Origin: Phycisphaerales bacterium
GTDB taxonomy: Bacteria; Planctomycetota; Phycisphaerae; Phycisphaerales; SM1A02
Reading direction: 5' to 3'
DNA length: 43,941 nt
Assembly (NCBI GenBank): GCA_012965315.1
Contig: DTSO01000005.1
Location: forward strand, 1,758-45,698
Shown here: positions 1,797 to 7,534 of the stretch, one piece after another
Position numbering within the stretch: the stretch's first letter is position 1
Layout: every line of letters begins with the position of its first letter
Translations under genes and position numbers: made by a program
The notes under the pieces: generated by a model
The model's database searches: none
The model's input: the letters and a program-made list of their open reading frames with translations, nothing else
What the model was told of the DNA's origin: nothing

Positions 1797-3638
1797 ATGC
1801 GTACAGCCCTTTTTATATTGTTGATTACTGTTATTACCAGTTGTAGTTCAATCGAACGAGCTGGTGATCAAAAGCGTGCCCAGAGATCAAACTCTCGTTA
1901 CATTGGTGAAGTTCCAAACATGCTTAAAGGAACGGTGAAACACCATGTCGCATTGATGGGATATGACTCCACCTATAGTGATACCTACGAACCATCTGTA
2001 AGTTCAGGGTATGGTTTGGTCATCGGCTTAAATGGAACTGGTTCAAGTGAAATCCCGCCGCAAGTCCGTGCACATATGATTGCTGACTTAGCACGGAGGG
2101 GCGTTGGACAATCCACTCAGGGTTTCGGGAGTATGACACCTGATGAATTGATAAATTCGGATGACACCTCAGTCGTAATTGTTGAAGCGATTATCCCACA
2201 AGCGGCAACTGGTCGAAAACCAGCACGGTCGAATATGAAACCCGACCACCCTTCTCTTCGGGGTACAACATTTGATGTACATGTTTTTGCAGAACCGAGC
2301 AGTTCTACATCCAGTTTAGAGGGAGGCATGCTCCTTCCGACATACTTACGGCTTGGGCAACTCACTACAGGCAAGGGGCAAGCTAGAGAAGTTGCTGTTG
2401 CATCTGGACCACTATTTATTAACCCATTTGCAGACCCGGATTCAGTTGGCAAAGATTATGTCAGCCGCACATCAGGAAGAATTCTAGATGGTGGCGAAGT
2501 AATGGTAAACATGCCAATGCGTCTCATCCTTCTTGACCCAAGCCACGCTCGAGCGTCGATGATTCAAACAGCCATTAACCGAGTTTTCCCAGAACAACAA
2601 GGGCAAGATGGACCAACTGCTAGAGGCATTAATGATGAACAAATTGAAATCAGAGTACCTCCATCGTGGAAAAACGATGTAATTTCGTTCATGGAAATCA
2701 TGACGCACATTACTCTTCGAGTGCAAAACCCAGAAACTATTGCAGTGCAAGTTAAACGAATGATTGAACGAGACCCAAGCCCAAGAAATGCGGATGCCGC
2801 AATTTGGCGTTGGAGATCACTAGGCGATCGTGCACTTCCAATCATCAGACAACTCTACGAATACCCTGATGAAATTCCTCGACTTGCGGCCCTTCGCGCA
2901 GGAGGTGGACTCAAAGATCCGATGTGTGTACCGCATCTAATCGAGATGGCTAATGCTGATATCGGTTTGGGAAATCGGCTTGATGCGCTCGATTTATTAC
3001 AAAAAATGCCTGCAGATTTCCGCATCGAAGTTGGACTTCGCCCACTTCTTAACTCGCCCGATTTAGAAATTCGATTACATGCTGCCGAAACTCTCGTTGC
3101 ACGTAATGACCCTGCAATCGACAAATACACCATTGGAAATAAATTTGATTTAATTGTTGTTAATTCAGACCACAATACAATTTACGTTACTCAAACTGGC
3201 GTGCCAAGAATAATTTTAACTGGCAACATCAATATTACACGTCCTTTGACAATGCAAACATGGGGCTCTGACTTGCTTATCAAAGAATCAAAAACGAACG
3301 AACAAGCACTTGAAGTTAAATACAGAAACAACACCGGACACTCGTCTCGATACGATAATATTTCTCCCAGTTTACCTACCTTCACAATGTTCCTTTCTCA
3401 CTTAACTACACCCGAAGCACCCGCCCCCGGTTTAGACTTAACGTACAGCCGAACGATTGGTGCTATTCATTCTCTTTGGCGCCAGCAATACCTCAATGCT
3501 GACTTTAAAGTAGAACAAGACCGCCTTCTAGCTGCAATTCAACGCTTGACATCTGAAACAACCTACACCCCAAGACCTGAGTTTGGCACTGAAGAAACCG
3601 TAGAAGTCGAAGAATTAGATTCTCGTTTCCTAAAATAA
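1797..3638 (+). CDS. FlgI (flagellar P-ring)-like lipoprotein with HEAT-like repeats
   Basis: This 613-residue protein begins with a lipoprotein signal (hydrophobic stretch then VITSC, lipidated Cys about residue 16). Residues about 65-330 resemble the flagellar P-ring protein FlgI. They include the GYGLVIGLNGTG signature near the start, VRAHMIADLARRGV, the 'FDVHVFAEPSSSTSSLEGGMLL' region, and an INRVFP segment like the FlgI core. FlgI itself is about 350-370 residues and has a normal Sec signal rather than a lipobox. Residues about 335-450 carry HEAT-like helical repeats (LPIIRQLYEYPDEIPRLAAL, MCVPHLIEMA, RLHAAETLVARNDP), and about 160 further residues follow that I do not recognise. No other flagellar gene lies in the window, so a P-ring function is doubtful; an envelope scaffold role is inference. 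A TACAAT hexamer ends 6 bases before the ATG, and no ribosome-binding site is visible. Confidence 0.75.
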   Translation: MRTALFILLITVITSCSSIERAGDQKRAQRSNSRYIGEVPNMLKGTVKHHVALMGYDSTYSDTYEPSVSSGYGLVIGLNGTGSSEIPPQVRAHMIADLARRGVGQSTQGFGSMTPDELINSDDTSVVIVEAIIPQAATGRKPARSNMKPDHPSLRGTTFDVHVFAEPSSSTSSLEGGMLLPTYLRLGQLTTGKGQAREVAVASGPLFINPFADPDSVGKDYVSRTSGRILDGGEVMVNMPMRLILLDPSHARASMIQTAINRVFPEQQGQDGPTARGINDEQIEIRVPPSWKNDVISFMEIMTHITLRVQNPETIAVQVKRMIERDPSPRNADAAIWRWRSLGDRALPIIRQLYEYPDEIPRLAALRAGGGLKDPMCVPHLIEMANADIGLGNRLDALDLLQKMPADFRIEVGLRPLLNSPDLEIRLHAAETLVARNDPAIDKYTIGNKFDLIVVNSDHNTIYVTQTGVPRIILTGNINITRPLTMQTWGSDLLIKESKTNEQALEVKYRNNTGHSSRYDNISPSLPTFTMFLSHLTTPEAPAPGLDLTYSRTIGAIHSLWRQQYLNADFKVEQDRLLAAIQRLTSETTYTPRPEFGTEETVEVEELDSRFLK

Positions 3639-3793: not shown

Positions 3794-3819
3794 GACAAAT
3801 GACAGGAGGTCTTTTTTTC

Positions 3820-4467
3820 ATGCGGTTATCAAAAATTACAATTGCTGGTTTCAAGTCATTTGCCGATACAACGGAGTTTGTTTTTGATGCACCAATTATC
3901 GGAATTGTCGGACCAAACGGTTGTGGCAAATCTAATGTAGTTGATGCAATTAAATGGGTGCTTGGCGAACGCTCTGCAAAAAGTCTACGCGGCGAAGCAA
4001 TGCTCGATGTAATTTTTGCTGGCTCGGCAGTTCGCAAACCATTAGGCGCTGCAACTGTCACACTCACATTCGATAACCCAGTCACGAATAAAAGCGCTTC
4101 CGACCCTTCCGATCGCCGTTTCCTTTCTGTAGATACAGATGAAGTCGGAGTAACAAGACGACTTTACCGCGATGGTAGAAGTGAATATTTAATCAACGGA
4201 AACAAAGTTAGATTAAAAGACATTCGGGAACTTTTTCTCGACACTGGCATTGGAACAAATGCCTATTCAATTATTGAACAGGGTCGTGTTGCAGCGATGT
4301 TACAAGCTAACCCAAGTGAACGAAGAGGCATACTCGAAGAAGCCGCTGGAGTCGCACGATTTAAAACACGCCGCAAAGAAGCGGAACGAAAACTTGAACG
4401 TACCGAAGTTAACTTAGTTCGTGTTCGCGAACAGGATCGTCAGAGTCCAAGCAGAAAAAGCGCGTAA
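3820..4467 (+). CDS. smc: SMC chromosome-condensation ATPase, N-terminal fragment (frame broken)
   Basis: This is the N-terminal ATPase half-head of a bacterial Smc protein. The start at 3820 is chosen because AGGAGG (3804-3809) sits 10 bases upstream and the protein then begins [16 protein letters not shown], as Smc proteins do. An in-frame ATG at 3799 lies before the Shine-Dalgarno. Walker A is GPNGCGKSN (about residues 32-40). The Q-loop/head region with [15 protein letters not shown] and the [24 protein letters not shown] stretch follow. After NLVRVREQ (about residue 207) the frame stops resembling the family and ends at a TAA (4465-4467), while the next coiled-coil segment continues in the frame one base further on. 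Smc with ScpA/ScpB compacts and segregates chromosomes. This is probably one gene with the next feature, interrupted by a deletion or an assembly error. Confidence 0.85.
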
Positions 4468-7400
4468 GTTTACGGACCTCGATGCACGATTCCGTTCAAT
4501 AAGAACAGACGTTGCACTTGACCAATTCCATGAACTTTACACTCAATTACATGGGTTAACGAGCAGACTTTCTTCACTCGAAAAAGAACGACAGCACGTT
4601 GCCTCCGTCATCATTGACCAAGAAGATGCGAAACGACAAGCAGAAGTTGACCGACATACATTGCAGTCGAGCCATCAAACACTTATCCAAGAATCAACTG
4701 AGCACGAATCTACAATTCGCCATTCACAACAACGAATTGAAATGATGGACCGTTCGATTAACGAATCGAAACAACAAGTCGATGATGAACGCAGCCGACT
4801 TCGTGAAATGCAAAATAGAGAAAACTCTCTCTCAGGACAACGAGAAGGCGCTTCAGAACAAATCGCTGCATCAGGTGAGCGTTTGGCTGAAATTGACCGA
4901 ACAGTCGAAACAATTTCAAGCGAACATGCGTCCTTCCAACAGAAAGTAGTCGAACTACAAGATTTACTTTCAGCAATTCAAGATACCCTTGAAGAGGAAA
5001 CAGGAAAACAATCTCAGTTGCATGCTATTGCCCAATCTGCAAAAGAGCGATTGAACAGCCAAATTGAGCAGCAAGTACGAACAGAAAAAAATAAACTGAC
5101 TGCAGAAGCAGAGCATACAACGCTTCAGAAAAATCGCGAGTCCACCGTTGCATTAATTAACGAAGCGACAAGAACAGCGCAACAACATGAAGCAGTTTTA
5201 AAGTCACATGACAGTGCTGCGCATTCTCTTGGCGAACTCGCAGAAGAATTAACCAATGATTTGGAAATAATGCGCCACCAACGCGCAAGTTCTGGGTCGC
5301 GATTGCATCTTCTAGAAGAAATGCAACATGCTCGCGAGGGTTTAACCGATGCTGTCAAATATGTTCTGGATAATCCAAATCAATTCCCCCAAGTCAAAGG
5401 GATGCTCGGTGATGCGATAGATGCAAACCACGCGGATGCGCACTTGGTTGAAATTGCACTTGGACAAAATGTGCAACTTCTATTAGTTGATTCAAACGAA
5501 GCAGTGGCACAAGTAGAATCTGCACTTGACAATGTCAATGGTCGAATTGGGTTAATCCCAATGGATGCCACAAATGATAATGCGAGTATCGCACACTCCC
5601 CTGCTACAGCGTTGCTTACTTTGATACAAATTGCAGATTATGCAAAGCATGCCGCTGCGAAAATACTCGGCCGGACTGCTGTTGTAAAGAACATGCAAAC
5701 AGCAATTGAAATGCAAAGCAAAATGCCCGGTTGGCGATTTGTCACGCTTGACGCTGAGTTAATTGAAGCCGATGGAAGAATGTTTGTAGGCAAGTCTACG
5801 GCAGGCGACCAGAAAGGCTGGCTCACTCGAAGAATTGAGATAAATGCTCTAACCGTTGAAGTTTCAGCACTCGATCAGCAAATCGATCAGAGGCAAACGC
5901 AATTAAGTGAATTGCTTGACGAAAGCGAACAAGCAAAACAACAACAACGAGACTCGGCAGCAAGAGTGCGTGATGCACGAAATTCAGTTGTCGAACATGA
6001 GTACCAATTACAACGAATCGATGATGACACACATCGTTGTACGCGACAAGTACACGTCCTTACTGAAGAACATGACGAGCTCAGGCAACGAATTTTACAG
6101 AGTAACACGCAGCACACGAATGCTGAAAACGAAGCGACCGAGCTCACGATCAAAATAGAATTGCTCACAACCAATCGTTCTACTGAAAGGGACAATCTCG
6201 ACCAAGCTATATCGCATTCAGAAACTACAACGGAAACACTAACTGCTGCGCGAGTTGACCTTGGACAGGTAGGAGAAAAACACGAAGCAGACAGACGTGA
6301 ACTCCGCCATATCGATGCAGCACTTGAAGAATCCGTTCGTCAACGAACGTTACTTCAAGATCAAATCGCAAGACGACTGGGTCAACTTGAACAATTCGAA
6401 GCATCAAAACAAGAAAGTCAAGAAGAAATAGACCGCTGTAAGGTTGTAGCAGAACAATGCAGAGTCGAGCTTGAAGCGTTCAATGAAAAAATGCGTATGG
6501 CGGACTGTGTTGTTGAAACTGCTGGAACAATACTTCAAAACACTCGTGAGCAAGGCGAGCGACTCGTGCGTGACTTCCATGCACTTGAACTGAGCCGTCG
6601 AGAGGCAGAAATCAACAGGGAAAACCTTGAAGACCGCACCATTGAAGAACTTGAACTTGATGTCAGCAATGCGTACAACACATGGCGCACGACCAAAGGT
6701 GACTCCGATCGCCCTGCAGAGAACCGTGAAGAAATGGATGAAGAAAGCAATCTTCTTCGAATTGAAATCAAGAAACTCGGTAATGTTAATCTGGATGCTA
6801 TTGAAGAAGAAAGCAATCTTGAAGAGCGCAATGTAGAATTAGCACAACAAGTCATTGACATCGACTCTTCCGTCGAATCGCTCACTTCACTTATTAATGA
6901 ACTTGAAGAACTAAGCAAAACGAAGTTTGAAGAAACCTTTAACTTAATTCGGGAACACTTCGCGGGACCACAAGGAATGTTCAGAAAAATGTTTGGTGGC
7001 GGTAGTGCAGATATTATGATGTTGCCTGACGAAGATGGGAATGTCGACCTTCTTGAAGCAGGCATAGAAATCAAAGCAAAACCACCCGGAAAACAACCTC
7101 GAGTAATTTCGCAATTGAGTGGAGGCGAACAAGCAATGACCGCTGTTGCACTTCTACTCAGTATTTTCAAGGCAAAACCATCGCCGTTTTGCGTCCTTGA
7201 CGAAGTTGACGCGGCGCTTGATGAAGCAAACACCCACCGCTTCGTCCGTTCACTTCACCACTTCCTCGACAACAGTCACTTCATTGTCATTACGCACCAT
7301 AAGCGTACAATGATTGAATGTGACAAATTGTACGGCGTAACAATGCAAGAACGAGGTGTTTCAAAACACGTTGCAGTTACAGTAGATGACGTTGGAAATA

Positions 7401-7534
7401 AAGGCGAAATTGCAGCATCAGTGCACACGAAGCCAGCGAATGTAGAACAAGACAATCCTGAAATGTCTACAAAAATAGTCGACGAGTTACCCATCGTTGA
7501 AACAACGACTTCTGAACCTGCAAATGTAGAGTAA
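4421..7534 (+). CDS. smc: SMC chromosome-condensation ATPase, coiled coil, hinge and C-terminal head (continuation of smc)
   Basis: Family resemblance in this frame begins at [11 protein letters not shown] (about 4440), the segment that normally follows the N-terminal head. The listed GTG at 4421 has no ribosome-binding site and is not a convincing real start. A long Gln/Glu/Arg-rich coiled coil runs to about residue 320. A hinge domain spans about 320-455 ([31 protein letters not shown]), followed by the returning coiled coil. The C-terminal head has the ABC signature QLSGGEQ (about residue 897) and Walker [16 protein letters not shown] (about 923). A Thr/Glu-rich tail of about 45 residues follows, which is not part of the core family. 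Together with the N-terminal fragment the length, about 1,240 residues, is normal for bacterial Smc. It ends 6 bases from the convergent hydrolase gene. Confidence 0.88.

Follow-up and report, generated by a model that had tools for sequence, protein, structure and literature searches.

The flagellar P ring, a 26-fold ring around the rod, is formed by FlgI (PF02119), a periplasmic protein that has a cleaved signal peptide and is not a lipoprotein. FlgI is known as a part of the flagellum, where it occurs together with FlgH and the other flagellar genes, and an annotation as FlgI is naturally taken as a sign of flagella. In the Salmonella structure (7CLR), as set out in passages of PMC8298488, FlgI consists of an upper inner-ring domain (residues 12-159), an outer-ring domain (residues 1-11 and 160-230) and a lower inner-ring domain (residues 231-346). 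The same passages liken the outer-ring domain to peptidoglycan-binding domains and place the P ring in the wall; Lys-63 and Lys-95, which lie near the rod, are described there as important for forming the P ring. The L-ring protein FlgH is a lipoprotein component of the LP ring in that description (PMC8298488).

We analyzed a window of 43,941 nucleotides (the whole stretch of DNA under study) from a Phycisphaerales genome, which contains a gene for a FlgI-like protein with a predicted lipid anchor. This protein and its homologues are called the long form below. Compared with the Salmonella protein (PF02119; 7CLR, passages of PMC8298488), the window protein shares the FlgI core over residues 71-318 and, less surely, the C-terminal domain; the long form differs from FlgI in its predicted lipobox, in an insertion of HEAT repeats, in its separate branch in the phylogenetic tree and in its frequent location beside smc. 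The predicted anchor is a likeness to FlgH, although FlgH belongs to a different family, has no sequence match to the long form and is absent from the host. The features of the locus are as follows.

1797 to 3638, plus strand: FlgI-like lipoprotein gene, 613 residues from ATG, a single open frame (ORF reading).
1797 to 1844, plus strand: predicted signal peptide and lipobox, residues 1-16, ending in ITSC at Cys16 (sequence prediction).
2007 to 2750, plus strand: N-terminal two thirds of FlgI (upper inner-ring and outer-ring part), residues 71-318 (PF02119, hhalign).
2751 to 3116, plus strand: HEAT-repeat insertion, about residues 319-440 (PF13646 on residues 323-388; no alignment with FlgI).
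3207 to 3512, plus strand: likely C-terminal FlgI-like (lower inner-ring) part, about residues 471-572 (hhalign).
3799 to 7534, plus strand: smc, the next gene, with the frame broken near 4434 in the assembly (ORF reading).

The FlgI-type core that a previous reading of the sequence alone (the sequence-only reading) had placed in a protein of about 613 residues was confirmed by the match to PF02119 (profile positions 18-236 of 343, E = 4.3e-18, 65.8 bits against a cut-off of 25.3). The two NCBIfam FlgI models scored far under their cut-offs on the same protein (51.5 against 300 bits and 15.2 against 557 bits), and a PDB sequence search with it as the query gave no match up to E = 1. A structure prediction of the whole protein, made from an alignment of eight homologues (the window protein and those of loci L002-L008), had a mean pLDDT of 39.6 with moderate confidence only at about residues 375-440; the mean for residues 441-600, predicted separately from the same loci, was 39.4. 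The smc gene of the window is read as two overlapping frames with 26 bases fewer than in L002 near position 4434, which could reflect a fault in the assembly or a genuine interruption of the gene.

The helical repeats noticed in the sequence-only reading are indeed present, but they most likely lie within the FlgI part and are not fused behind it. HEAT_2 (PF13646) matched residues 323-388 with 29.0 bits (cut-off 27.7) and was above the cut-off in four of five further long forms scanned, L043 being below it. In profile-profile comparisons (hhalign) with classical FlgI, the N-terminal part of the long form aligned with a probability of 99.9 (E = 4e-34), the HEAT block gave no alignment (score 13.3), and the C-terminal part aligned with columns 310-414 of 415 (score 36.8, probability 58). 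For this last comparison, 200 permutations of the target columns and 200 of the query columns reached at most 19.7 and 21.7, respectively, and the reversed target and query scored 12.3 and 15.9. An HMM of the classical C-terminus also matched residues 497-536 of the 539 in the long form of L096 (E = 4.8e-6), close to the end of the protein; in the other long forms its matches were weak (best E = 0.035, with several at the equivalent position) or lacking. The roughly 160 residues previously regarded as of unknown nature thus most likely include the C-terminal domain of FlgI, for which the alignment and its controls are good, not conclusive, evidence. Because the C-terminal part aligns with the classical C-terminus, the HEAT block appears to be inserted into a complete FlgI fold; by eye, the insertion point corresponds to the junction of the outer-ring and lower inner-ring domains. 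The protein is likely to be built as a whole FlgI body interrupted by about 120 residues of HEAT repeats, and on the comparison with the controls we rejected an arrangement in which HEAT repeats and a tail of another nature are appended behind FlgI.

From its signal peptide and the lipobox ahead of the core, which the sequence-only reading had also recognized, the window protein is predicted to be a lipidated bacterial lipoprotein. The lipobox position was Cys in all 43 aligned long forms and in every row of a 13-row long-form alignment (A2). The following residue was Asp in only one of the 43. By the sorting rule of Escherichia coli, a residue other than Asp after the Cys would favour the outer membrane for the long form, if the rule holds in planctomycetes.

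The distribution of the long form was surveyed in 120 genomes drawn from the class of the host. PF02119 was present in all of them. By the count of listed rows, classical FlgI (153 to 424 bits, in most cases along the full profile) was found in 84 genomes, which are exactly the 84 that carry FlgH. In most of the genomes with flgI and flgH, the two genes are neighbours. FlhA was found in 93. The long form, searched with the 13-row model A2, was found in 117 of the 120, some rows being split in two or truncated at contig ends; an in-frame stop was reported in seven of the 117 rows, one of which (G105, locus L049) is the gene's own end. The three genomes lacking it (G016, G058 and G098) all carry classical FlgI. 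Thus, whereas classical FlgI accompanies FlgH and the flagellar genes, the long form is tied to neither FlgH nor FlhA: it was present in 36/36 genomes without FlgH (and without classical FlgI) and in 27/27 without FlhA, and genomes of 1.5 to 1.9 Mb (G114, G025 and the host, G000) kept it without a reported in-frame stop. The long form therefore occurs in genomes of the sampled class with and without flagellar genes, and the earlier suggestion that the P-ring fold is reused outside the flagellum is well supported by this distribution. In a wider draw of 159 genomes from the phylum, 149 of them outside the class, full-length long forms were found outside the class in nine genomes (seven of family f46, together with G234 and G172), and fragments in three genomes of family f53; matches to the HEAT repeats only were excluded from these counts. 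The genome searches with the long-form model covered Planctomycetota, and the named loci are from uncultured metagenome-assembled genomes.

A quick tree without bootstrap was reconstructed from 87 core domains (43 long, 39 classical and five divergent rows; two more divergent ones, L199 and L201, were lost before this step, and L098 and L106 were left out). Classical FlgI formed one group (SH-aLRT 94) and the long forms branched apart. With the divergent rows included, the tree needed three changes of form label against a mean of 32.5 for shuffled labels, which fits, and does not prove, one origin of the long form. We also compared the positions of the rod-facing residues Lys-63 and Lys-95. 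Both positions are basic in Salmonella FlgI, in 13 of the 39 classical sequences and in none of the 43 long forms; singly, they are basic in 25/39 and 21/39 of the classical and in 15/43 and 1/43 of the long forms, respectively, and the window protein has Asp and Ser there. This comparison is a weak and merely supporting test because classical planctomycete FlgI also varies at these positions.

Taken together, we consider, with a probability of roughly 0.55, that the long form is an ancient paralogue of FlgI, no longer part of the flagellum, which became a lipid-anchored, probably wall-associated scaffold or ring of the cell envelope. Its near-universal presence in the sampled class, in genomes with and without flagella, and its frequent location right before smc suggest a hitherto unrecognized envelope role, which is probably unrelated to swimming. 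In the simplest model that we infer, the protein forms a lipid-anchored oligomer associated with the wall, perhaps in the shape of a ring, and uses the HEAT block for docking. The long form would be exported by Sec, receive its lipid at Cys16 and stay in the outer membrane. The FlgI body would contact peptidoglycan and sit between the outer membrane and the wall, where it may oligomerize into a ring or collar without a rod, and the HEAT block would offer a docking surface for a partner. Such a protein could work as a static scaffold from the outer membrane to the wall or as a periplasmic collar of some apparatus, possibly co-expressed with smc. We found no description of such a protein in the open-access literature searched, and the main text of a study of essential genes in Planctopirus limnophila (PMC10632474) mentions neither P-ring, FlgI, "flagell" nor smc. 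Annotation by PF02119 only would mislabel non-flagellated planctomycetes as flagellated. A lipoprotein of the FlgI fold that is close to a core gene of the class points to an envelope structure that has escaped recognition.

Instead of a free-standing scaffold, the long form might be the periplasmic collar of another trans-envelope machine, such as a pilus, a secretion system or the host's rodless export gate. Flagellar FlgI itself rings an axial structure (passages of PMC8298488), and the host retains genes for an export gate. The host assembly (1.91 Mb, 91.7% complete, 134 contigs) has the long form as its sole FlgI-family gene, and one of its contigs (C11; L039 14323-19504 and L040 1-2032) carries fliP-, fliR-, flhB-, flhA-, flhF- and fliA-like genes. 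The FliP, FliR-type, FlhB-type and sigma-70 domains were confirmed, flhF being identified by reading alone, and a FliF-like gene is located on another contig. The absence of flagellar genes noted in the sequence-only reading therefore holds for the neighbours of the gene, an O-methyltransferase (PF01596, 183.7 bits) and smc, and not for the genome. Profile searches of the host genome gave no match to FlgH, FlgA, flagellin, rod or hook proteins or classical FlgI, and the outcome was the same in its relatives G102 (97% complete) and G005 (95%); the searches for flagellin, FliF, rod proteins and FlgA covered 16 to 25 chosen genomes. As far as the models detect, the host thus lacks a rod that a P ring could encircle, and it may have a flagellar export apparatus without rod and filament. 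The long form is not tied to this gate, however, because all 27 genomes without FlhA keep it, and in a comparison of shared neighbours among the loci no pilus or secretion gene recurred beside it. We regard such a collar as rather unlikely and prefer the scaffold. As a separate observation, the FlhB-like protein of the host (L039 16120-17148), read by eye, seemingly has no NPTH, the usual cleavage motif of FlhB.

The location beside smc was examined in 126 long-form loci (117 from the class and nine from outside). The sequence-only reading had named smc as a neighbour in the window, which was confirmed; its conservation is a new finding. The N-terminus of Smc was encoded downstream on the same strand in 78 of the 126 loci (69/117 in the class and 9/9 outside), and the adjacency was seen in 15 of 23 class families, the exceptions being f5, f7, f8, f13, f16, f18, f21 and f23. 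Six of the 48 loci without smc downstream have about 1.1 kb or less of downstream sequence. Among the 31 smc-positive loci compared over about 1.5 kb upstream, the largest cluster with shared sequence had four members, all of one genus, which rules out that the pair merely reflects regional synteny. The largest group of smc-negative loci sharing downstream sequence had six members, all of family f21; in the f21 loci L137, L143, L149, L153, L155 and L179, a gene that by eye is pseudouridine synthase-like replaces smc.

Other FlgI-like sequences also precede smc. Fragments of the long form do so in the f53 loci L193-L195, and divergent FlgI-like genes in L196, L197, L198, L200 and L201 (families f24, f44 and f55); in L199, no smc was present in the stretch examined. 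The divergent genes before smc share with the long form the FlgI-like region, a lipobox-like motif (by eye) and smc as the next gene, but they are very divergent and, by eye, have no HEAT insertion. In the tree, those of L196, L197, L198 and L200 were placed loosely with classical FlgI on long branches, which leaves a common origin with the long form unsettled. In L196, L197 and L199, the frame upstream of the divergent gene reads by eye as an anaerobic ribonucleotide reductase or ATP-cone protein, and several loci of other planctomycetes have similar frames, or genes resembling nrdR, ahead of smc. The pairing was also examined in 30 chosen genomes of the phylum (19 without a FlgI match and 11 with one classical match). 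An smc locus was obtained from 27 of them, and in none of these did any of three HMMs detect a FlgI-like sequence upstream of smc; the mixed HMM recovered its ten positive controls, five of which were its own training rows. A FlgI-like gene before smc is therefore ruled out as a trait of the whole phylum.

These results suggest shared expression of the long form and smc and do not imply contact between their products. The long form could nevertheless be a wall-side partner of Smc in chromosome segregation or division, for which speak the adjacency in the class and outside it, the lack of conserved upstream neighbours and the divergent genes without HEAT repeats that also precede smc. However, Smc is cytoplasmic whereas the long form is predicted to be exported, eight of the 23 class families lack the adjacency, and the 27 loci of other planctomycetes have no FlgI-like gene before smc; we consider a partnership improbable. 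The phylum has been described as dividing without FtsZ (abstract of PMC12283558). As a speculation to which we give equally little weight, a lipid-anchored ring of the FlgI type without a rod, expressed with smc, might mark or brace the wall site where segregation and division meet. The recurrent pairing with smc offers a tangible starting point in a phylum whose envelopes and division are unusual.

The long form might also be the host's own P-ring protein, that is, an extended FlgI. Its PF02119 score is above the cut-off, and it was the sole FlgI found in nine class genomes with FlhA and without FlgH (the host, G102, G005, G015, G025, G051, G057, G082 and G111). All nine had a FliF match. Seven gave no match to flagellin or to rod and hook proteins, namely the host and G102, G005, G015, G025, G057 and G111, and FlgA (PF13144) matched weakly in G025 and G111, as well as in G116, which has no FlhA, with no match in the remaining seven of the nine. 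The sequence-only reading had named as counter-evidence a genome with a full flagellar set in which this gene is the only flgI. No such case appeared among the 84 genomes with FlgH, all of which carry a separate classical FlgI; G051 (75% complete) and G082 (90%) come near, with FlhA, FliF, flagellin and rod/hook matches, no match to FlgH, FlgA or classical FlgI, and no FlgI other than the long form. As flgI and flgH adjoin in most genomes carrying them, one missing stretch could explain the gaps in these two. A P-ring role is further opposed by the retention of the long form where no flagellar export gene was found and by the low scores of the NCBIfam FlgI models. Such a role has small odds, and we rejected it for the host on the missing matches to FlgH, FlgA, flagellin and rod/hook proteins.

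That the long form is a relic without function, as the reduced flagellar set of the host lineage and the lack of a known function might suggest, is hardly credible given that 117 of the 120 genomes retain it, also at sizes of 1.5 to 1.9 Mb and there free of reported in-frame stops, and that the lipobox Cys and the core motifs are conserved.

A second FlgI-family protein of 605 residues was observed in G165 (L047 4142-5956), with the FlgI match at residues 287-559 (91.3 bits) and no smc beside the gene. This divergent sequence fell on the long-form side of the tree beside L096, a long-branch join that may be false. A FlgA-type match precedes the FlgI region with a score of 16.8, under the cut-off of 23.8, and the protein is perhaps a fusion of FlgA and FlgI.
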